Origin: Bacteroidota bacterium
Lineage (GTDB): Bacteria; Bacteroidota; Ignavibacteria; Ignavibacteriales; Melioribacteraceae
Length of the DNA stretch: 50,139 nt
NCBI GenBank assembly: GCA_018818165.1
Contig: JAHISP010000055.1
Location: forward strand, 1-50,139
Direction: 5' to 3'
This document shows, piece by piece, positions 2,136-11,826 of this stretch (positions within the stretch are counted from its first letter, which is position 1; every line of letters begins with the position of its first letter). The position numbers and the translations under genes are program-made. Below the pieces are notes generated by a model. That model saw nothing but the letters and a program-made list of their open reading frames with translations. It did no database searches and was not told where the DNA came from.

Positions 2136-5099
2136 TTATACCTCGCTTTGTGAATTTAGTGTAAAATAAAATGTTGCGCCACTATCAACATTTCCTTCAG
2201 CCCATACTTTACCATAATGTCGGTGGATTATTCGTTGAACAGTTGCTAACCCAATACCTGTTCCAGCAAATTCATTTTGTTGATGAAGTCGTTGAAAAGG
2301 CGAAAACAATTTATTTGAATATTTCATATTAAATCCAGCTCCATTATCACTTATAAAATAAGAACTCTTGCCATTAGAATCAATTTTTCCAAATTCTATT
2401 TTAGATTCATTTTTCTTTGAAGTAAACTTCCAAGCGTTTTCCAAAATGTTGTAAATGGCTGCTCTAATTAGATTTGGGTCAGCAATATCAATCATATTTG
2501 GAGCTATAATAAACTGGATTTTTCGATCAATATCTTGAACTTGTAACTCATTTTTAATCGATTCTGCAATTTCTGATAGATTTACTTTAGCAAAATTTAT
2601 TGAACTTCTTGTAACTCGAGAAAGTTTGAGCATATCATCGATTAATCTTGCCATCATTTGAGCAGAAGAACGAATTCTGTTTAAGAAATTTTTGCCTTGT
2701 GTGTCAAGCAAATCGTAATAATCTTCCAAAATTGCTTGGCTAAATCCGTCAATGCTACGCAAAGGTGCGCGTAAATCATGCGAAATTGAATAAGAAAATG
2801 ATTCAAGTTCTTTATTTGTTGCTTCTAATTGTGCGGTTCGTTCAATTACACGAAGTTCAAGTTCTTCATTTAGATTTCGAATTTCTTCTTCAACTCGTTT
2901 GCGCTCAGTTATATCAATTAAATGTGTAATAAAATAAAGTTGGTTATTATTTTTATCACTCAAAAGGGAAGATGAAACTTCAGCCAAAATTATATCACCA
3001 TTTTTTTTCAAATACCTTTTTTCAAAATTTATTGATTCATTTTGATTTTTAAGCAGACCAATTATAAAATCGCTGCTCACTGAAATATCATCCGGGTGAG
3101 TTATTTGTTGAAAAGTGAGAGAAAGCAATTCGGGTGCATAATATCCTAAAATTTGGCACATTTTTGCATTTACTTGCAAAAACTGACCGTCAGTTCCTGT
3201 TAAACACATTCCAACTGCCGAATTTTCAAATGCTGTTCGAAAGCGTATTTCACTTATCCTTAATTCATTTTGGGCTTTTTTAATTTCGGTGATATTTCTA
3301 GTAATGGATAAAATATGAAGCACATTATTTAAGGAAATAATAGAAGAAGACATTAATCCAGTAATTATCCTTCCATCTTTCATTCTAAACTTTACTTCCA
3401 AATTTGGATAGATACCATGAGTTTTTAATCCAGCTACTAATTTTGCTCTGTCTTCAGCATTTTCCCAAATGTTTATTTCTAAAGAAGATTTTCCAATTAC
3501 ATCTTCTCTATTATATCCAGTAATTGAAGTAAACCCATCATTAATTTCAACAAAAATACCATCTTCTAATCTGTTAATATTAATTGAATCGGGACTTGTA
3601 TGAAAAGCCAATTTAAATTTTTCTTCACTTGCTTTTAAGGTTTCTTCAGCTTTTTGTCGCGAAGCAATATGCTCAATTAGTAATTCCTTTTGTTTAGTAT
3701 TTTGCTCAAAAAGCGTTGAGTTTTCAATAGAAATTGCAATCTGATTTGCAACAATTTGTAGATGTTCTAAATCAATTTCAGAAAATTCATATTCTATTTT
3801 TTCAGAATAAATACCAATTATTCCAATTATTTTATCTTCAATAAATAGGGGAGCACCAGCATAAGATACAAATTCATATAAATTAGGATAAAATTTAGCT
3901 GAATCAGCATGGGATTTTTCTTTAATAATGTTCTTAATTCTAATTGCTTTTTTTGTACTAATTATTTTGCCACCAACTCCTTCATTTATGGCAAATGACT
4001 CAATTAAATTTTTCTTTTTAATTCCTACGCTGCCCCAAAGTTTAAGCTCTTTGCCTTCTATTATTCGCACAATGCAGGCATTTACTTTAAAAGTATCTTT
4101 AATATAATTGAGTAGCTCTGCTATTTGTTCTTGTGCAGAATATTTATCAATTCTTGCAGCTTTTACGTTTGAGATTAATTTTAATCGTGAATTAGCAAAT
4201 TCAAGTTCTTTTGTCTTTCTTCTAACTAAAGCACGTAGTGAAATATTGATTATTACAAATAAAATAACTATTCCAACAAGGATTGAGATTATTAAAACTA
4301 AATTATTCGAAATCCAAGATTCCTTTTGTGTAGTAAACCAATTTTTATGAAGTTCATTAAACTTACCATTTTCTTTTAAACGAACCATTCCAACATTAAT
4401 TAGTTTTAATAATCTATTATTTCCTTTTTTAACAACAAAAGAAAACTCACGGGGAAATAATGGTCTGCCGATAACAATTAAATTATTATTTTTAAGCTTA
4501 CTAATACCTTCATTCTGAATAATGTCAGAAACAATTGCGGCATCACAATTACCTTCTGAAAGTAAGATTAAGGCATCTTGTTCACTTGGCACAGAGATTA
4601 AATTTATTTTTGGATAATTTGTAATTAAGTATTCTTCTAAAGTGGAAGAAGCGTAAACAGCAACATTTTTGTTTGCTAAATCTGAAATGGAGAAAATTTC
4701 TCTATTTCCTTTGTGGATAAATATTTTATCGTAAGTTACTTCGTGGGGAATTGCATAATCAAATTTCATGTCGCGTTCTGCCGAATAAAACATATCTGAA
4801 ACATGAATTGTCTCTTTATTTTCGAATTCATTTTTTATATCAGCCCAACTACCTAATTTGAATTCTACCTTAAACTCCATTTCATCAGCAATAGCTTTCA
4901 TCAAATCAATATTAAATCCTGCTGGTTTACCATTTTCGTCTAAAAATTCGTATGGAGGAAAATTTGAATCACTTCCAAAAACAACTGGATTTGGTACTTC
5001 AGTTTGTGAATATTGTGGCTTGGAAAACAAAATTAATAAAAAAACCACAAATAGCAGCGTTATTACATTAGCATTAATCCAATCATTAACTGATTTCAT
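2136..5099 (-). CDS. Sensor histidine kinase with periplasmic solute-binding domain (SBP_bac_3-GAF-PAS-PAS-HisKA-HATPase)
   Basis: A 987-residue membrane kinase. After a signal/anchor at about 10-28 comes a family 3 extracellular solute-binding domain (about 35-258; FGSDSNFPPYEF and GFNIDLMKAIADEM are typical of amino-acid-binding proteins), then one transmembrane helix (about 265-290), a GAF domain (about 325-460), two PAS domains (about 490-735), a HisKA domain with SISHDLRAPLRS, and an HATPase domain with N-box (ILENAWKF), DNGAGF and GTGIGLATV. All kinase motifs are intact. The solute-binding domain should sense an amino acid or similar small ligand in the periplasm (family knowledge); the real ligand cannot be told. 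First gene of the three-gene operon; a 200-bp region separates it from a divergent lipoprotein gene. Confidence 0.93.
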   Translation of the reverse strand: MKSVNDWINANVITLLFVVFLLILFSKPQYSQTEVPNPVVFGSDSNFPPYEFLDENGKPAGFNIDLMKAIADEMEFKVEFKLGSWADIKNEFENKETIHVSDMFYSAERDMKFDYAIPHEVTYDKIFIHKGNREIFSISDLANKNVAVYASSTLEEYLITNYPKINLISVPSEQDALILLSEGNCDAAIVSDIIQNEGISKLKNNNLIVIGRPLFPREFSFVVKKGNNRLLKLINVGMVRLKENGKFNELHKNWFTTQKESWISNNLVLIISILVGIVILFVIINISLRALVRRKTKELEFANSRLKLISNVKAARIDKYSAQEQIAELLNYIKDTFKVNACIVRIIEGKELKLWGSVGIKKKNLIESFAINEGVGGKIISTKKAIRIKNIIKEKSHADSAKFYPNLYEFVSYAGAPLFIEDKIIGIIGIYSEKIEYEFSEIDLEHLQIVANQIAISIENSTLFEQNTKQKELLIEHIASRQKAEETLKASEEKFKLAFHTSPDSININRLEDGIFVEINDGFTSITGYNREDVIGKSSLEINIWENAEDRAKLVAGLKTHGIYPNLEVKFRMKDGRIITGLMSSSIISLNNVLHILSITRNITEIKKAQNELRISEIRFRTAFENSAVGMCLTGTDGQFLQVNAKMCQILGYYAPELLSLTFQQITHPDDISVSSDFIIGLLKNQNESINFEKRYLKKNGDIILAEVSSSLLSDKNNNQLYFITHLIDITERKRVEEEIRNLNEELELRVIERTAQLEATNKELESFSYSISHDLRAPLRSIDGFSQAILEDYYDLLDTQGKNFLNRIRSSAQMMARLIDDMLKLSRVTRSSINFAKVNLSEIAESIKNELQVQDIDRKIQFIIAPNMIDIADPNLIRAAIYNILENAWKFTSKKNESKIEFGKIDSNGKSSYFISDNGAGFNMKYSNKLFSPFQRLHQQNEFAGTGIGLATVQRIIHRHYGKVWAEGNVDSGATFYFTLNSQSEV

Positions 5100-5299
5100 A
5101 ACAAATCTCTGTTTGTAAAAAATACAATTTTAGACTTACTCGGTTGTTTAAATTACTAATATTTTTAATTAGTATACATACAAAGATTAATTAATAGATG
5201 AATATTGTTTTATGTAACTAAAATATATGTTGTAAAATTAAGACTATTCTGTTTTTTTTTATAAATTTAGGACATAAATTTTAACTATTGGAGGAAAAA

Positions 5300-5824
5300 A
5301 TGCGTACTAGATTTTTACTAATTTCTTTTTTATTTATAGCAATATTTTTTATAGGTTGCGATGAAGATTCACCTACTGAACCAAGTTCAAGTTCAAATTC
5401 TGTAACAATAACTGGTGATATTACAAAATCATTTGATGCTGACTGTATGGCTGCACTAGTTACTGAAGATACTGTTTCAGCTTTTACTGTAATTCTGCAA
5501 CCCAAAGGTTCGGATATTAGTTCTGGTTTTTATTCTAATAATATGTTAACATTTAGCAAGTATTCTAATACATTACCAGCAGTTGGTAAATACAATATTG
5601 GAACTGAGATGGAAGGTGATGAAAAATTCTATTCATTGTTTTTTGCAAATGATTCAACTTTTTATTTTATGTATAGTGGAACCGTTGAAATTACAAAATC
5701 AAGCAGTGAAAATATTTCTGGTAAGTTTGATGTACAAGGCTCCATTTTTGATTATACAAACCCTGACCCAACTAGAATAATTAATGTAAAGGGACAGTTT
5801 TCCACAAAACCAATGAACTTATAG
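5300..5824 (+). CDS. Small lipoprotein of unknown function
   Basis: A 174-residue protein with a lipoprotein signal peptide: basic start MRTRF, hydrophobic stretch, lipobox FFIGC with the lipidated Cys near residue 20, then an acidic, Ser/Pro-rich linker (DEDSPTEPSSSS) that is common in Bacteroidota lipoproteins. The rest is rich in beta-strand-forming residues and has no recognised motif. The start at 5300 is chosen because a GGAGG ribosome-binding site sits at 5290-5294; an in-frame TTG at 5288 lies on top of that site. It stands alone on the plus strand between a divergent kinase gene and a convergent TonB receptor gene. Function not recognised. Confidence 0.8.
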   Translation: MRTRFLLISFLFIAIFFIGCDEDSPTEPSSSSNSVTITGDITKSFDADCMAALVTEDTVSAFTVILQPKGSDISSGFYSNNMLTFSKYSNTLPAVGKYNIGTEMEGDEKFYSLFFANDSTFYFMYSGTVEITKSSSENISGKFDVQGSIFDYTNPDPTRIINVKGQFSTKPMNL

Positions 5825-5832
5825 AAATAATT

Positions 5833-5859
5833 GGAGCTAATAAATAATTTATTAGCTCC
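5833..5859. terminator. Bidirectional hairpin terminator
   Basis: A perfect 12-bp stem GGAGCTAATAAA / TTTATTAGCTCC with a 3-nt loop lies between two convergent genes and is followed by a T-rich run on the plus strand. It can serve both the lipoprotein gene and the TonB receptor gene. Confidence 0.75.
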
Positions 5860-5865
5860 TAATTT

Positions 5866-8085
5866 TTAATGAAAATACAATTTATAAGTCAATCTAAAAT
5901 TTCTGCCAGCCTCTGGAAGTATCGATTTTACACGCGATAAGTGATTTCGATATTCCTTATTTAGCATATTATCAAACGAAAATGAAAATGTGTGAATAAG
6001 TTCTGACTGCGAAATTGAGTATTGAGCAAAAGAATTTAGCACAAAATATCCATTCGTTGGTTCTTCAAATTCATCAACTCTGTCTTGTGATAATGCCCAT
6101 TCTCCGTTAATTCCAAAGGATAAAATATCGTTTGAAAAACTAATTCCAACAATTCCCTTAAAAGGTGGAATTTGTGGAAGCGGTTTTCCTGTATCTTTAA
6201 AGTTACCTTTTGTATAACTTGCGGACGATTCAAAAGTAAAATTATTCAAAAATTCCCACTCAAATTGTCCTTCACCACCGATAAATAAAGCTCCAGTTCC
6301 GCTACTTGCATAAATTGGCAAAAAAGTACTCCAATCGGTTTCGCCAGTATTTCGTGGAATAATGTAATAACTTAAGTCATTTCGGAAAAGATTGAAATTG
6401 AAAAATAAATTATCAAATTTGTGATAGATAAAAAGTTCAGTTCCAAATCCACTTTCATCTTGCAAATCGGGATTTCCAATTTCGTAGGAATATGCAGCTA
6501 AATGCGGACCTTCCGAAAATAGTTCCTCAATTGTAGGCACGCGGGAAGATTTACTAATATTCAATCCAACATGGACATTTTCACTAATTGAGTAAAGTGA
6601 TGAAAAACTTAGCGAATAAGTATTAAAAATCCTTTCTCTAATTGCACCAATTTTTGCGTTTGGATTTTCATTTTGGGGTGAAATTTTATCAAAATTTAGT
6701 CTGGCAGAAAACTCAAAATTGATTTTATTAAAATTTGTTGATTCATATAAATATGCAGCTAAATTAAGTGATTTTGATGGGGGAGTAAAGACAAAGCCTC
6801 CAACCACAAAATCTCTTGCTTCAAAAGACAATCCAATATTACCTACAGATGGAAAAAGAACGTTTTTATGGTCAAGATTTACATAACCAATATAATTTGT
6901 AATTTCAAACTCGGAGCCAATTGCCCCATTTTTTTCAAATTCTTTGTGGCGGTAATAAATTCTGCTTATTTGCGTTTCAATGTGTTCCAAATAATTTCCG
7001 TGAAGATTTATTCGCGATTTTGCATTCCACTGAAATCGTTTCATAGTTATATCAACACCTTTAGGATGCGCTCCTAAAAATCCACCAGGAACGCCATAAT
7101 CTAATTCATAACCACGGAATGAGCTTCCCAAAAATCCAAAATCACCAACATAACTTCCACCAAAACTATAATTCAAATTATCGGAATATGAGTTTTTCAA
7201 AATTCCATTTGGTGTATTTATGTCATCAGCTTTTCTTTTGCTAAATTCACCTCTAAAAGCAATTGGATTAAAAGGAATTTCAACAATTGCCGAGCCTAAA
7301 TATCCATTATTTACCGTTTCTGTGTAAGCGCCAATTGTTCCAGTAATAGAATTGTGAATTTCCTCTGGAATTTCCTTTCTAATTACATTAACAACACCGC
7401 CAATTGTGGTTGAAGTTTGCTGTAAAACTCGCGGTCCACGAATAACTTCAATTCTATCAACAGTAAATGGTTCAATTGTAACTGCGTGGTCGGGCGAAGA
7501 AGATGATAAATCGGTTGTTTTATTTCCATCTTCACTCATTAAAACTCTATCGCCACCCAAACCTCTAATAACTGGTCGCGAAGGAGCTGGTCCCATTGAA
7601 CGCATTGCAATACCAGCCTCATTTTTAAGTGTTGAAGCCAGCGTAATTCCCAAATCTTTTTGAAGTTCTTTTCCTTTAATTACGTTAGAAAGCTCGTGCA
7701 AATCGTCAAATTTAGATTGTGTATTGTGTGCTGTAACCGTAACTGTTGAGATATTTATCAATTTTGGTTCGAGCATGTAAAATCTATTTGTGGGATTATT
7801 TTCACATTTTAGCGAAAACAAGCCTTCTTTGTAAGCAATGTGAGTAATTCTGACTTTAAATGCACCTTCTGGAATATTTTTAAATGTGAATTTTCCATTT
7901 AAATCGGCAATTTCATATCGTTCCAATTCAAGAATTTGAACTGCTGCGTTTATAACAGGCTCGTTTGTTTCGGAATCATAAACAAATCCAACAAAATCGT
8001 TAGTTTGTGCAAAAGAACTTATTGATAGAAAAATGACGATAATGGGAATTATCGTCATTTTATTTAAATATTTACTAATTAACAT
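5866..8085 (-). CDS. TonB-dependent outer-membrane receptor, ZnuD-like
   Basis: About 739 residues: signal peptide ending SSFAQ, a carboxypeptidase-regulatory-like beta domain (about 25-105), a plug domain, and a 22-strand-type barrel ending in an aromatic/basic C-terminus (LTYKLYFH). The plug has PVIRGLGGDRVLM, SSSSPDHAVTIEP, IEVIRGPRVL and GGVVNVI; the S-P-D-H-A run followed by the IEV-RGP block is characteristic of the ZnuD family of zinc (and haem) receptors (established family feature). The ATG at 8085 overlaps the stop of the upstream lipoprotein gene by 11 bp; an ATG at 8058 is the alternative. The neighbours (His-rich lipoprotein, small HFHP protein and, further upstream, a Fur-family regulator) fit a metal-uptake cluster. 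Zinc as substrate is inferred. Confidence 0.85.
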   Translation of the reverse strand: MLISKYLNKMTIIPIIVIFLSISSFAQTNDFVGFVYDSETNEPVINAAVQILELERYEIADLNGKFTFKNIPEGAFKVRITHIAYKEGLFSLKCENNPTNRFYMLEPKLINISTVTVTAHNTQSKFDDLHELSNVIKGKELQKDLGITLASTLKNEAGIAMRSMGPAPSRPVIRGLGGDRVLMSEDGNKTTDLSSSSPDHAVTIEPFTVDRIEVIRGPRVLQQTSTTIGGVVNVIRKEIPEEIHNSITGTIGAYTETVNNGYLGSAIVEIPFNPIAFRGEFSKRKADDINTPNGILKNSYSDNLNYSFGGSYVGDFGFLGSSFRGYELDYGVPGGFLGAHPKGVDITMKRFQWNAKSRINLHGNYLEHIETQISRIYYRHKEFEKNGAIGSEFEITNYIGYVNLDHKNVLFPSVGNIGLSFEARDFVVGGFVFTPPSKSLNLAAYLYESTNFNKINFEFSARLNFDKISPQNENPNAKIGAIRERIFNTYSLSFSSLYSISENVHVGLNISKSSRVPTIEELFSEGPHLAAYSYEIGNPDLQDESGFGTELFIYHKFDNLFFNFNLFRNDLSYYIIPRNTGETDWSTFLPIYASSGTGALFIGGEGQFEWEFLNNFTFESSASYTKGNFKDTGKPLPQIPPFKGIVGISFSNDILSFGINGEWALSQDRVDEFEEPTNGYFVLNSFAQYSISQSELIHTFSFSFDNMLNKEYRNHLSRVKSILPEAGRNFRLTYKLYFH

Positions 8086-8917
8086 TAACTGTGATTGGTG
8101 CAAAAGTGACTCCTACATTTCCATCGTGTAAAATTTTAATAGTAATTGTTGTGGAACCAGATTTTAATCCAGCAACTTTAAAAGCCCAAGGTTCATCAGC
8201 TTCTTGTCCAACAATTTGAACAATACTTATGTCACCAACTTCGACAAGCAAACTATGAGGAGGCACCACTGGAACGAAGTGAACATTATTTGCATCAAAA
8301 AATTCGACTTCAAAATGGTCTGTTGTCTCATTAGTTTTAACTGATAATTGCCCAATAACTTGGCTATTATTAATTGCAACAAGAATATTACCAGTTTCTT
8401 CGTCACTTAGTTCTAAACCAATAGCTATGCCATGAGTTCCAGTTTCGTTAATAACTTTAACAGGAATTTTACCAGAGCGATAATCATTATGATCATTGTG
8501 TTTTACAAAAAACTCAATACTAGTTTTACCAACAAGCAAACCTTGTAAATGGAAAGCAAAAGAACCATCTTCGCCTTCGTGTTGCCAAATATCAGCAATT
8601 GCTGCATCTGCAAATTCCCAAGCCAAAGTTTGAGTTTCGGTTGAAGGTGGGTCAAATTCATTTTCGTTTTCGTCAATAAATTTTATATCATAATGCTCAG
8701 ATAAACCGCCTAAAGGAGCTTTTAAAGTATCAGAAGTTACACCGCGTATAATTCGGGCAACTTCAATTCCTGAATCATAAAAAACCATTCCAATGGCTTT
8801 TAAATGCTCTTCTTGAGGAGCAACTGGGTCATCTTCACAAGCTGTTGCAAAGATGAAAATAGTTAATAAAGAGAATAGCAGAACAATTCTCTTTAAAAGA
8901 AATAAATTCTTTTTCAT
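8075..8917 (-). CDS. His-rich two-domain lipoprotein, probable partner of the TonB receptor
   Basis: A 280-residue protein with a lipoprotein signal (lipobox FATAC, Cys near residue 27) followed by DDPVAPQEEHLKAIG. The mature part looks like two related beta-sandwich units: the pattern W-x-F-x-hydrophobic-x-G-L-x-x-G-x-T-x-I occurs near residues 115-135 and again near 245-265, each after a short 'DI' segment. Acidic and His-containing stretches (WQHEGEDG, VKHNDHNDYR, ILHDGN) could bind divalent metal. The start has a GGAG site 8 nt upstream. Located between the small HFHP protein and the receptor and overlapping the latter, so co-expressed. I do not recognise a named family; a metal-capture role is an inference from composition and context. 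Confidence 0.78.
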   Translation of the reverse strand: MKKNLFLLKRIVLLFSLLTIFIFATACEDDPVAPQEEHLKAIGMVFYDSGIEVARIIRGVTSDTLKAPLGGLSEHYDIKFIDENENEFDPPSTETQTLAWEFADAAIADIWQHEGEDGSFAFHLQGLLVGKTSIEFFVKHNDHNDYRSGKIPVKVINETGTHGIAIGLELSDEETGNILVAINNSQVIGQLSVKTNETTDHFEVEFFDANNVHFVPVVPPHSLLVEVGDISIVQIVGQEADEPWAFKVAGLKSGSTTITIKILHDGNVGVTFAPITVNVN

Positions 8918-8967
8918 AAGATTTTCTCCGATTAGTTTAATTTTAAAAGTGATAATTCCAAATAAAA

Positions 8968-9324
8968 CTAAAGAGAAGGAGGACCTCGAAGGTGAAAAGA
9001 GTAACTAAAATTCTTTTCAAAGTAAAAATTTGTGGTTGGAAATATTAGTTGAGTAGTTTCTAAATCTACTTTTGTAGCATTAGTAATAAAATTTGTGCTG
9101 TTAAATCCATTTTGTGCAAAATTAAGTATTGGACAGTCTTTTGCCGTGTAACTGTGCTCGCTTTTTTCAACTGGAGCTTTATTCAATAATGATTTAGAAT
9201 TTCCAAAATCTACTGGGTGAAAGTGGAAAGATGTGATTAGTAATAAAAACACATAAATTGCCACTAAGGAAATAGATTCGGTTTTGTGGAAAGTTTTAAT
9301 ATTTTTATTTAGAATTTTAGTCAT
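8968..9324 (-). CDS. Small membrane-anchored protein with HFHP and C-terminal RGPP motifs
   Basis: 118 residues with one hydrophobic helix (about 19-35), then TSFHFHPVDF, a single Cys in KDCPILNF, and a C-terminus YSFHLRGPPSL. The layout (one helix, His cluster, CP motif, C-terminal RGPP/RAPP) recalls the small DUF2946-like proteins that sit beside metal TonB receptors in other bacteria; this likeness is by eye. The ATG lies only 15 nt after the 3' end of tRNA-Gln on the same strand, so the mRNA probably starts upstream of, or within, the tRNA gene. First protein gene of the receptor cluster. Function unknown; a role in metal binding is inferred. Confidence 0.65.
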   Translation of the reverse strand: MTKILNKNIKTFHKTESISLVAIYVFLLLITSFHFHPVDFGNSKSLLNKAPVEKSEHSYTAKDCPILNFAQNGFNSTNFITNATKVDLETTQLIFPTTNFYFEKNFSYSFHLRGPPSL

Positions 9325-9338
9325 TTTTCATCTTTTTG

Positions 9339-9409
9339 CTGCCCTACTAGGATTCGAACCCAGAACCAAGGCTCCAGAGGCCTCTGTGTTACCGTTACAC
9401 CATAGGGCA
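9339..9409 (-). tRNA. tRNA-Gln (anticodon CTG)
   Basis: A 71-nt cloverleaf on the minus strand: a perfect 7-bp acceptor stem TGCCCTA / TAGGGCA, D arm with GTAACGGTAAC, anticodon stem GAGGC / GCCTT (one G-T pair), loop CTCTGGA with anticodon CTG at 9375-9377, and T arm with the canonical GGTTCGAATCC-type loop (GTTCGAAT). The discriminator base is G at 9339. CCA is not encoded. It reads CAG codons. Confidence 0.95.
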
Positions 9410-9485
9410 ATGTGTATATATAAATTATTAATAGTTGAAAAAAGCGACCCGAAAAATATGAAATTACAGAACAATAATCATAATA

Positions 9486-10205
9486 TTATTCATTGATATG
9501 GACTAGAAAATATTCATTAGCAGTTTCGCCAACTGATTCGGCTTGTTTAATTGTCATATGAGTTGAATCATTCTCCGATTTTCCTCCCGCTTCAATTATA
9601 GCAAGATCACTTCCAGTAGTCATCTTTACTAAATTTTCACAATAAGCCGTATCACCACCATATACAATTGATTTGCCTTTATAAACAAATTTATATCCAA
9701 GTGCCGGTACTTTTTGTGATGTAGTTCCAAGAACTTCATCATCAAAATGTTCCACTTCAAACGGGTATATTTTTACATTCTTTCGGCTAAAAATTTTATT
9801 ATCTATTATTGCTTGTAGATTTATTTTATACGTTAAATCGTTTTTGTAAACATCCGCAAAAGCTTTTAAAACGGTTGAAATTTCAATGCTTCCAAGCGGA
9901 TAATGAATATTTAAAGCTGTTTTCTTTTTCATAACAAAAAGATATGTGAGTAATCCCCAAAGTCCTCCAATGTGGTCGTGATGACCATGACTAATAAAAA
10001 TATCAGAAATATTTAGAATTTCAGTTTTGGGAAAATTTTTATATAAATCTCTTAAGATACCGTCACCAGGATCAATTACGAAAATGGAATTATCGGTTGA
10101 AAGAACAATTCCGGTTGCAATATTTGGAATAGAGCAATAAATCTCTAAATACAAATCATCCTTTTGCCAAACCATTGGATATTTATTTGAAAATTTTTTC
10201 TTCAT
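9486..10205 (-). CDS. Metallo-beta-lactamase-fold hydrolase, RNase Z/arylsulfatase-like
   Basis: 239 residues of the MBL superfamily. Metal ligands visible: ISHGHHDHIGG (HxHxDH), a His at EVEHFDDE, the Asp of YGGDTAYCE, STHMT and the final His of LVHINE. The protein stops two residues after that His, shorter than typical RNase Z-like chains, which run on for another short helix. Lacks the long RNase Z exosite arm, so a small-molecule hydrolase is more likely than tRNA processing (inference). It begins 8 bp after the Fur-family gene and is surely co-transcribed with it. The substrate is unknown. ATG start preceded by an A/T-rich leader with AGGTAAA. Confidence 0.85.
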   Translation of the reverse strand: MKKKFSNKYPMVWQKDDLYLEIYCSIPNIATGIVLSTDNSIFVIDPGDGILRDLYKNFPKTEILNISDIFISHGHHDHIGGLWGLLTYLFVMKKKTALNIHYPLGSIEISTVLKAFADVYKNDLTYKINLQAIIDNKIFSRKNVKIYPFEVEHFDDEVLGTTSQKVPALGYKFVYKGKSIVYGGDTAYCENLVKMTTGSDLAIIEAGGKSENDSTHMTIKQAESVGETANEYFLVHINE

Positions 10206-10213
10206 ATTTACCT

Positions 10214-10648
10214 TTATTTGGAATGCTTATTACAAGTTCCAAAAATATTAAACTGGAATGAATCCGCTTTGAAATTATTCTTTAACACAATATTGTCAAC
10301 AATTTCAGACACTTTTGGATTGTTAAACTCAATAATACCACCACAAACTTTGCAAATTAAATGTCCATGGTTTTGTATGTTATAGGAAGATTCGTAAAAA
10401 GTTTTATTTTCACCAAAATTTCTTTTAGCTAATATTTCGCATTTAACTAATAATTCTAGTGTATTATAAACTGTGGCTCTCGATACATTAGACTTTCCAG
10501 TTTTCATTTCCACATAAAGATCATCTGCAGTAAAATGGTCACCGCTTTCTATTGCAAAATCAAGAACTTCGAAACGCTCTGGAGTTATTCTATGCTTGCC
10601 GTTTCTTAGAAAAACCTTAAATTTTTCGTGTGCTTTTTCTTTTTTCAT
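10214..10648 (-). CDS. Fur-family metal/peroxide-responsive repressor
   Basis: 144 residues with the family layout: winged helix (about 15-85; RITPERFEVLDF, HFTADDLYVEM, SRATVYNTLELL) and a dimerisation/metal domain with NHGHLICKVCGGIIEF. The first structural zinc pair CxxC is intact; at the C-terminus the usual second CxxC appears as CNKH, i.e. CxxH. Which member it is (Fur, Zur or PerR) cannot be decided from sequence by eye. The gene lies 98 bp after the prephenate dehydrogenase gene; a perfect Fur-type palindrome is in that gap. Downstream lie an MBL hydrolase and, past tRNA-Gln, a ZnuD-like receptor, which makes a zinc or peroxide role plausible. Confidence 0.9.
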   Translation of the reverse strand: MKKEKAHEKFKVFLRNGKHRITPERFEVLDFAIESGDHFTADDLYVEMKTGKSNVSRATVYNTLELLVKCEILAKRNFGENKTFYESSYNIQNHGHLICKVCGGIIEFNNPKVSEIVDNIVLKNNFKADSFQFNIFGTCNKHSK

Positions 10649-10726
10649 ATTTATCGTAAATCTTTCTAGTTCTTGTAAATAACTTATTCAAATATATGTA
10701 ATTTTCTTTTCGGGCTACTTTTTTTC

Positions 10727-10749
10727 TAATTATAAATCATTTATAATTA
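10727..10749. promoter_or_regulatory. Perfect Fur-family-type palindrome upstream of the fur-like gene
   Basis: Arms TAATTATAAA and TTTATAATTA flank TCA. Its core TATAAAT-C-ATTTATA has the 7-1-7 symmetry known for Fur/PerR/Zur operators. It is centred about 90 bp upstream of the regulator start and overlaps the stop codon of the upstream tyrA-like gene. A role in autoregulation is inferred. Confidence 0.5.
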
Positions 10750-11826
10750 TGCCGTTTCAAATCCAATATTCTTTAATATAATAGAGGCTTTTTCAACCAC
10801 TTCTGAAGATTCAAATGAAAGTCTAAAAGTTCCGCCAGAACCTTCGCGAATTTTTAATAATTCCATATCTTTGATGTTAATGCTAGCATTAAAAAGAGCT
10901 GTTGATATTTTACTTATTGCACCAGGTTCATCAGTTACAAAAACAAATAAATCAAATAAAGGATGTAAAAACCCTTTTGTTTGTTGTGGAACTTCATCCC
11001 TATGAATGCGAGCATTTTCAAAATAAGCTTCAATTGCCTTATAATTATCATTGTTAATTTGCTTACTTAATAATGATAAATCGTAAGAAAATTTATCAAG
11101 AGCAGTTAAAATATGGTTTTTGTTGTTCGCAATAATAGATTCCCATATTTTAAAATCGCTGGAAGCAATTCTTGTCATATCTCGGAAACCACCGGCTGCC
11201 AAATCGAGAAAATTGTATGAATCAGTTTTAAGAGAAGCGGCATTTACCAAAGCAACAGAAACAAGTTGAGGAAGATGACTAACGCTTGCGGCAATAATAT
11301 CGTGTTGCTGGGCTGGAATGTGTAAAATATTAGATCCAAAAGATGTTATAATTTTCTGCAAATCAGCAAAAAGTGGATTGTCATTTTCATTTTCTGTTAA
11401 AATATAAACCGAATTTTCAAAGAGTAATGAATCAGAATTATCAAATCCACCTTTTTCTTTTCCTGTCATTGGATGTCCGCCAATGTATATTCCATTACTT
11501 TTTATTTTATCCCATTTTTCTTTGAACACATTTTTGACGCTGCAAACATCAGTAAGAATTGTGTCCTTACTAAGTTTTGGAGCAATATTATCAAATACTT
11601 CTAACGATTTTGCAACTGGCAAACAAAGAAAAATTAAATCGGAATTTAAAGAATCTTGATAGGAATTTAATTTTGAATGAATAATATTTTCATCAAAGGC
11701 TTTGGATAAAACTTCTGGTTTATCAAATGCAGAAATTACAAAATCAAATTTAGATTTTTGTAATGCTTTTGCAATTGAACCTCCAATTAAGCCTAATCCA
11801 ATTATAGAAATATTTTTGACTCTCAA
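10747..11826 (-). CDS. tyrA: Prephenate dehydrogenase with ACT domain
   Basis: Oxidises prephenate to 4-hydroxyphenylpyruvate with NAD(P) in tyrosine synthesis. 359 residues: Rossmann motif IIGLGLIGGSIAKAL at the N-terminus, GGHPMTGKEKGG around residue 117 (catalytic His region), the helical dimer domain, and a C-terminal ACT domain (about 285-355; FVFVTDEPGAISKI) expected to give feedback control by tyrosine. The start is TTG at 11826 with a GGAG site 8 nt upstream. It follows the DAHP synthase gene by 70 bp, so the two probably form an aromatic amino-acid operon. Confidence 0.95.
   Translation of the reverse strand: MRVKNISIIGLGLIGGSIAKALQKSKFDFVISAFDKPEVLSKAFDENIIHSKLNSYQDSLNSDLIFLCLPVAKSLEVFDNIAPKLSKDTILTDVCSVKNVFKEKWDKIKSNGIYIGGHPMTGKEKGGFDNSDSLLFENSVYILTENENDNPLFADLQKIITSFGSNILHIPAQQHDIIAASVSHLPQLVSVALVNAASLKTDSYNFLDLAAGGFRDMTRIASSDFKIWESIIANNKNHILTALDKFSYDLSLLSKQINNDNYKAIEAYFENARIHRDEVPQQTKGFLHPLFDLFVFVTDEPGAISKISTALFNASINIKDMELLKIREGSGGTFRLSFESSEVVEKASIILKNIGFETA

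Follow-up and report, generated by a model that had tools for sequence, protein, structure and literature searches.

Three open reading frames (ORFs) lie together on the minus strand of the window, a 50,139-nucleotide (nt) stretch of Bacteroidota DNA (contig JAHISP010000055.1): a small ORF, a lipoprotein gene and a gene for a ZnuD-like TonB-dependent receptor. It was found that the small ORF is probably a stalling regulatory leader, that is, an upstream ORF (uORF) which switches on a zinc-uptake operon when zinc is scarce. The case is one of sequence comparison, from which the gene order, the invariant residues, the motif spacing, the link to znuABC, a codon bias and base pairing at the level of groups of loci, and the zinc ligands of ZnuD are drawn. 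The initial annotation had already recognised the three ORFs as a co-encoded trio, which is real and correctly placed (Table 1), but it missed the most telling feature of the small ORF, its C-terminal R-G-P-P. The spacer between the small ORF and the lipoprotein gene is 50 nt, and ATG 8085 or ATG 8058 is a likelier start of the receptor gene than TTG 8103. Neither the small ORF nor the lipoprotein matches a Pfam model at its cut-off or any NCBIfam model.

Among the RAPP-like motifs, RAPP and RGPP cause the most robust arrest; the small exported proteins that carry them close to the C-terminal end are encoded before TonB-related and metal genes, in a class called universal in Gram-negatives (PMC12992588). 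The window ORF shares this layout with the RAPP/RGPP arrest peptides, among them ApdA and ApdP (PMC10951233): its product is small and putatively exported, has R-G-P-P close to its end, and is encoded before a TonB-related gene; just two residues remain after P116, and its HxH is part of a longer F-H34-F-H36-P.

A single-sequence search for the small ORF matched just 12 of 58 genomes, while the lipoprotein matched in 24 of the 58 (its own genome included). L007, a piece of a contig on which no R[AG]PP ORF lies, was left out of the matches to the small ORF. Among the names of genomes in which the lipoprotein was found are Melioribacter roseus, Melioribacteraceae, Ignavibacteriales, Ignavibacterium, candidate division GN15, and Caldithrix; the window is accordingly taken to come from Ignavibacteria, which GTDB places in the phylum Bacteroidota. 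The first lipoprotein set comprises 23 accepted loci, including the window; L038 (E 8.6e-4, lying after a SusC-like ORF) was dropped, and so was L039 (a second row for one locus). All 23 loci have an ORF of 105-141 amino acids upstream of the lipoprotein gene, ending in R[AG]PP plus 2-5 residues. Since the small ORF precedes the lipoprotein in every accepted locus, the gene order is not a matter of chance. By comparison, of 1245 other complete ORFs of 80-290 amino acids, taken from all frames of the loci that had been read at that stage, none has an R[AG]PP-type motif at its end.

The conserved residues of the small ORF are few. Alignment A1 holds 22 of the 23 uORFs, including that of the window (one near copy was omitted). 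Identity to the window ORF is 12-29% for 20 sequences and 90% for one, and the only invariant columns are H34, H36, C64, R113, P115, and P116. The same six residues are invariant in 14 uORFs from a scan of named genomes, seven of which are shared with the first alignment. Throughout the first set, the Cys lies 47-50 residues and the HxH 73-84 residues ahead of the Arg. Each of these spacings is kept in 74 of 81 uORFs of the class, as against 5.7 (Cys) and 2.6 (HxH) expected from shuffling, in a set most of which was found with a profile that itself contains the HxH, Cys, and Arg residues. A hydrophobic stretch lies directly ahead of the HxH in all 77 class uORFs that have an HxH in the examined range. 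The structural model of the small ORF has one helix (residues 2-32) and otherwise low confidence (mean predicted local distance difference test score, pLDDT, 57.5), which in itself does not prove disorder.

What does this ORF precede in other genomes? In the lipoprotein loci of named genomes, an R[AG]PP ORF is present in 13 of 15 (six of them also in the first set), and the other two are a contig end and a KAPP form. A phylum-wide set gave 32 of 40 loci; these were chosen non-randomly out of 92 matching genomes, and none had earlier been seen in full. Starting from the receptor, an R[AGS]PP ORF was found upstream of 27 of the best 30 of 78 places (window included); two of the remainder have KAPP, and for one (L278) none was seen, with little sequence ahead of its lipoprotein. 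The locus sets that were not chosen by their uORF overlap in part, through shared genomes. Profile A1 matched 88 of 294 class genomes (a different sample), many of them without the lipoprotein. Outside the model itself, 60 of 74 places were read, and 58 of these have an R[AGS]PP ORF. At first calling, the next genes in these 60 loci were a type b receptor (14), a type c receptor (12), the lipoprotein with a ZnuD-like receptor (12), OMP389 with ZnuABC (10), a ZnuD-like receptor alone (5, two of which gain a lipoprotein on rescan), RND-efflux-like genes (2), and small genes or none (3). Overlap had hidden the lipoprotein at first calling in L043, L052, L161, L165, L198, and L214, where it was recovered on rescan. 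The type b receptors keep the plug D-H in 10 of 14 cases, and the one tested scores best against ZnuD, below the cut-off; the type c receptors (TBDRc) do not show this motif. Candidates for a small protein that stands beside non-metal receptors are the type c loci, whose receptors have no assigned ligand, and the two efflux-like loci of the 60.

One link to zinc comes from the OMP389 loci. OMP389 is a protein of about 389 amino acids, outer-membrane-barrel-like and encoded between the uORF and znuA (L122 2802-3971; homologues L235-L255). It has no Pfam or NCBIfam match, and several copies have GPHKAHPF at the end. Searched on its own, OMP389 was present in 21 of 197 class genomes; an R[AG]PP uORF is found in 18 of these 21 loci and ZnuA is next in 20, the identity of ZnuA and the permease being confirmed on representatives by Pfam (PF01297, PF00950). 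In one genome (G018, whose locus is that of Melioribacteraceae SCALA702), znuA, an ATP-binding cassette (ABC) ATPase gene (znuC), a permease gene (znuB), a Fur-family gene, the uORF, the lipoprotein gene, and the receptor gene follow each other, separated by no more than about 42 nt. The small ORF thus heads lipoprotein-receptor, receptor-only, and OMP-ZnuABC operons, and its constant companion is zinc uptake rather than one physical partner. At the lipoprotein-receptor unit it stands first, and in one relative (L051) other genes lie closely ahead of it. There, a Fur-family gene (L051 2529-2948, the same locus as L227) lies between an ABC permease gene and the uORF, and NCBIfam scores cannot separate Zur from Fur. 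Control of zinc-uptake genes is generally ascribed to repressors of the Zur type.

The receptor was described in the initial annotation as ZnuD-like from its S-P-D-H-A plug signature, and this holds. It has CarboxypepD_reg, plug, and barrel domains (Pfam), and among proteins of solved structure ZnuD is its best relative (4rdr, E 2.9e-31). Residues D205, H206, and H534 align to residues 113, 114, and 513 of the 4rdr chain, which an offset of 14 converts to Asp99, His100, and His499. The zinc ligands of ZnuD are Asp99, His100, Glu340, and His499 (PMC4557270); three of the four are kept in the window receptor, and the Glu340 stretch fell outside the alignment. The receptor therefore has the same plug Asp and His and barrel His as ZnuD of Neisseria meningitidis and belongs to the same overall receptor family. 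It differs in having a CarboxypepD_reg-like domain in front and a lipoprotein partner, and its best NCBIfam score, with ZnuD (NF038289), is 223.5 bits, far under the cut-off of 950. Presumably it imports zinc, in one operon with the leader. A ZnuD-like receptor follows the lipoprotein in 22 of the 23 first-set loci (the remaining one is a contig end) and within 300 nt in 39 of the 40 phylum-wide loci; no lipoprotein was seen beside a non-metal receptor in these loci. The phylum-wide exception, L181 (1098-2512), has the uORF and the lipoprotein with no adjoining receptor; another contig of that genome (L288) has a ZnuD-like receptor after a lipoprotein-sized ORF, a place at which an R[AGS]PP ORF was not seen.

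To call the lipoprotein His-rich, as the initial annotation did, is too strong, with 11 His in 280 residues, but it does have conserved His and Asp residues. In alignment A2 (15 of the 23 lipoproteins), H38, H140, H143, and D145 are invariant and H123 is nearly so. Its two domains in the window are predicted to be Ig-like, with fold matches to S-layer and adhesin domains; the copy number of the domain varies between one, two, and three among the loci. Since the Ig-like fold is a common arrangement, it says nothing on the function of the lipoprotein. The lipid end reads C-E-D-D-P, and at least two Asp or Glu residues are found at positions +2 to +6 in 44 of 63 lipoproteins with a lipobox. The C-E-D-D resembles the acidic surface-export signal of Bacteroidota lipoproteins (PMC5080379). 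The lipoprotein is likely a surface zinc-binding partner, as far as its place and role can be read from the sequence. BtuB-BtuG is likewise a TonB receptor with a co-encoded surface lipoprotein in Bacteroidota (PMC10404256); its ligand, however, is vitamin B12. The window lipoprotein has predicted Ig-like domains.

The codons of the predicted stall site may have a second use. Part of the stretch CCT-CCT-TCT-CTT-TAG pairs with GGAGAA, which contains the presumed ribosome-binding site (RBS) of the lipoprotein gene. This was assessed over a set of uORFs from which near-duplicates had been removed (111 to 100). Compared with synonymous recodings, the native codons pair better with the RBS of the next gene (mean z -0.96, p 2e-8, n=100), and they pair better with their own site than with the sites of other loci (mean z -0.68, p 2e-6, n=100). 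The Pro-Pro codons read CCTCC in 60 of the 100 uORFs, as against 29.9% of 388 other Pro-Pro pairs. This CCTCC is tied to a downstream GGAG or GAGG site (38/60 with it, 8/40 without, odds ratio 6.9), both inside the class (34/50 and 8/28) and, weakly, outside it (4/10 and 0/12). The signal agrees in both groups and both controls. Pairing between arrest codons and an RBS is not noted in the covered parts of the RAPP/RGPP literature (PMC10951233, PMC12992588). No intrinsic terminator was found in 8850-9600.

Table 1. Features of the uORF-lipoprotein-receptor unit in the window
Feature	Positions	Strand	Remarks
Small upstream ORF	8968..9324	-	118 amino acids; has a hydrophobic segment near the N-terminus, then HxH and Cys, and RGPP near the C-terminus; candidate metal sensor and arrest peptide
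Hydrophobic segment, residues ~15-33	9226..9282	-	candidate signal anchor, from hydrophobicity and predicted helix only
H34-x-H36	9217..9225	-	invariant; candidate metal ligands; 79 residues ahead of Arg in RGPP
C64	9133..9135	-	invariant in alignments; 49 residues ahead of Arg in RGPP
R113-G-P-P116, codons CGA GGT CCT CCT	8977..8988	-	predicted stall site; also CCTCC resembling an anti-Shine-Dalgarno sequence
Predicted hairpin	8924..8977	-	8977-8965 paired with 8938-8932 and 8929-8924; contains lipoprotein RBS
GGAG	8926..8929	-	presumed RBS of lipoprotein gene; paired in predicted hairpin
Lipoprotein ORF	8075..8917	-	280 amino acids; a pair of predicted Ig-like domains; EDD comes directly after lipobox Cys27
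H140-x-x-H143-x-D145 of lipoprotein	8483..8500	-	candidate metal site, conserved in alignment
ZnuD-like TonB-dependent receptor	5866..8103	-	745 amino acids counted from TTG 8103
S-P-D205-H206-A of receptor plug	7483..7497	-	aligned with ZnuD zinc ligands Asp99 and His100
H534 of receptor	6502..6504	-	aligned with ZnuD zinc ligand His499

Two known systems resemble the small ORF. CruR is the DUF2946 uORF of bfrG/crtA in Bordetella pertussis, a copper-sensing first gene ahead of a TonB receptor (PMC9426467). It is likewise a small exported protein whose C-terminal R-A-P-P lies a few residues from the end. Its CXXC (C90 and C93) lies 49 and 46 residues before R139, with 45 residues between CXXC and RAPP (PMC9426467), so that its first Cys and C64 of the window ORF are equally far from the Arg. 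CruR allows expression without metal and shuts it off with metal, and the same direction is expected for the window uORF. CruR relies on CXXC, copper, and Rho and has a spacer of 162 bp; the window ORF, in contrast, combines HxH with one Cys, has a 50-nt spacer with a predicted RBS hairpin, and is followed by zinc genes. Its membership in DUF2946 (PF11162) was rejected for want of a Pfam match; one of the 22 aligned uORFs matches, weakly (E 3.4e-4). CutF, the uORF of cutO in Rhodobacter capsulatus, controls an RBS stem-loop through its stall (PMC9973294). The likeness lies in an exported nascent sensor (putative in the window), a C-terminal Pro-Pro motif, and a stem-loop, in the window a predicted one, hiding the next Shine-Dalgarno sequence. 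The small ORF also passes the filters for CutF-like proteins of that paper (fewer than 150 amino acids, PP in the last 15 residues, an N-terminal signal, here by hydrophobicity only, and a same-strand gene within 1000 nt), and CutF-like proteins are listed there from Bacteroidota too. CutF differs in sensing copper via CxxxC and in switching its gene on with metal.

CxxC occurs in 17 of 91 class uORFs, in 12 of 22 uORFs outside the class, and in 13 of 20 OMP-linked uORFs. Since it lies near the CruR distance in the latter two groups, HxH plus CxxC is probably the older type of sensor, of which the window form retained one Cys.

From these comparisons I infer stalling itself, zinc as its signal, the direction of the switch, and the place and role of the lipoprotein. 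The mechanism may be as follows. The nascent chain of the small ORF would begin export through its N-terminal hydrophobic segment. A stalled ribosome would cover the stop codon together with the two Pro codons, a stretch that would otherwise be paired with the lipoprotein RBS; because the covered codons would leave this RBS free, the lipoprotein and the receptor would be made. When zinc is sufficient, it would bind the HxH/His/Cys set already outside the tunnel, 49-79 residues from the Arg. Residues at such a distance from the peptidyl centre lie beyond the ribosome tunnel. The zinc-bound chain would fold or be pulled and the stall would end, whereupon the hairpin would close, or Rho would act as in CruR, and the operon would be off. 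The receptor made under zinc scarcity would then import zinc, aided by the surface lipoprotein as a zinc-binding partner.

Several points weigh against such a leader. Among the 40 phylum-wide loci, four have no such ORF, two have KAPP, one has RAPP further from the end, and one is cut by the contig. When 20 of the remaining 48 receptor places were read, only seven of 19 readable remote receptors had the ORF (L291 has no upstream DNA and was left out). HAPP is found in two of the 21 OMP389 loci, and one has no such ORF. The usual Cys is missing from its place in six of 91 class uORFs, and the window ORF has a single Cys where CruR and the 12 out-of-class uORFs show CxxC. Two of the 60 uORF loci (L173 and L176) precede genes that look by eye like resistance-nodulation-division (RND) efflux genes, which would need the opposite response. 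On the RNA side, the hairpin of the window is not stronger than those of shuffled sequences (z -0.63; 54 of 200 fold as well). For every next gene the first ATG of the frame was taken, as a rule, to be the start codon, and since the loci are related, the p values for pairing and codons are too small. The CCT in the Pro codons could also partly serve the stall itself. Finally, CutF has a similar layout and switches on with metal, so that the anatomy does not fix the on/off direction.

L173 and L176 have RAPP uORFs with HxH and no Cys at the usual place, followed by genes of 496, about 1043, and 394 amino acids, by eye an RND metal-efflux set.

Could the leader answer to something other than zinc? 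It is rather unlikely that the small ORF is an arrest-peptide leader for another metal, such as copper, iron, cobalt, manganese, or a metal complex. The metal uORFs tested in the literature (CruR and CutF) do answer to copper, CxxC near the CruR distance and the one weak DUF2946 match point the same way, and some uORFs precede receptors without an assigned ligand. These points are opposed by ZnuA standing next in 20 of 21 OMP loci, by the genome in which znuABC and a Fur-family gene stand together with the uORF and this receptor, and by the ZnuD ligands kept in the receptor. ZnuA-type proteins can carry manganese too (NCBIfam hits of both kinds were obtained), so the evidence for zinc is strong and not final. 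It is very improbable that the peptide monitors protein export in the manner of SecM or VemP, reporting secretion load rather than metal. The hydrophobic stretch before the HxH would suit an export monitor, and RAPP peptides were first found ahead of sec and yidC genes; the genes downstream of the present uORFs, however, serve metal uptake and not sec. I know of no export purpose for an invariant HxH and Cys.

The initial annotation had proposed that both partners pass metal to the receptor. This stays plausible for the lipoprotein as a surface metal-binding partner. For the small protein, a role as a periplasmic or membrane metal chaperone handing zinc to the receptor or the lipoprotein is quite improbable. 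Its HxH and Cys are conserved and it is co-encoded with a zinc receptor, as a chaperone might be. Such a relay was nevertheless rejected as the best reading, since the ORF also heads operons without the lipoprotein or this receptor, such as OMP-ZnuABC. Besides, R[AG]PP, the arrest motif at its end, is as conserved as the His and Cys while most of the chain varies freely, the model beyond the N-terminal helix has low confidence, and both CruR and CutF, which are comparable in size and layout, work in cis. A stalling zinc leader is the preferred reading of the small ORF.

Some further observations were made around these genes. A gene for tRNA-Gln(CTG) at window 9338-9409 (-) ends 13 nt before the start of the small ORF, and a search for known RNA families in 5000-10800 found nothing but this tRNA. 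A tRNA lies at the same place in the near relative L040 (2933-3004), and 15 further loci that were tested have none there. Leader and tRNA-Gln may be on one transcript, or the leader may be freed from the tRNA. Upstream of the tRNA, window 9486-10648 (-) has an RNase Z-like gene of the metallo-beta-lactamase fold and a Fur-family gene, and one 355-amino-acid frame spans both in L040. Behind the receptor, a small lipoprotein-like ORF runs convergently (5288-5824, +), with a sub-cut-off NCBIfam match to Riean_0653 (30.7 bits, cut-off 57). L222 (6001-7227) encodes a three-domain lipoprotein. L135 (2350-3558, the same locus as L228) has a 402-amino-acid ORF, by eye transposase-like, between the lipoprotein and the receptor, and the receptor may be cut off from the leader there. 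In L050 (7799-8347) and L058 (968-1345), a small ORF that closes with L-T-P-P-P and a few more residues directly precedes a large ORF resembling an outer-membrane receptor; these two are perhaps a second, PPP-type family of leaders.

How new is such a leader? Metal leaders of the arrest-peptide type are known already in CruR and CutF, and a survey has described a class that precedes TonB receptors; since these are published, the kind of system is not new. No arrest peptide answering to zinc was found in literature searches limited to open-licence papers. The main text of the survey (PMC12992588) has no zinc class, and "zinc", "znu", and "ABC transporter" occur in it 0 times; zinc, znu, and Zn2+ occur nowhere in the main text of the CutF paper (PMC9973294), and according to the CruR authors neither copper nor zinc has a described riboswitch (PMC9426467). 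As far as the searches show, novelty lies in the connection with zinc, in a sensor of the HxH/Cys type, in the range of operons headed (receptor and ABC), and in Pro codons put to two uses. The chances are about even that these HxH/Cys chains, which in Ignavibacteria and their Bacteroidota relatives head operons of the ZnuD and ZnuABC types, form the first zinc-sensing family of arrest peptides, in which the same Pro codons stall the ribosome and form the anti-Shine-Dalgarno CCUCC, the stall unlocking the next gene. If this is true, zinc import would be timed by metal binding to a protein that has yet to leave the ribosome, and many unannotated ORFs, each of about 110 amino acids, would acquire a function. 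It would also offer a testable rule, namely that arrest codons can double as an anti-Shine-Dalgarno strand. The lipoprotein and OMP389, two families without a Pfam or NCBIfam model, would then be named as likely parts of zinc uptake.

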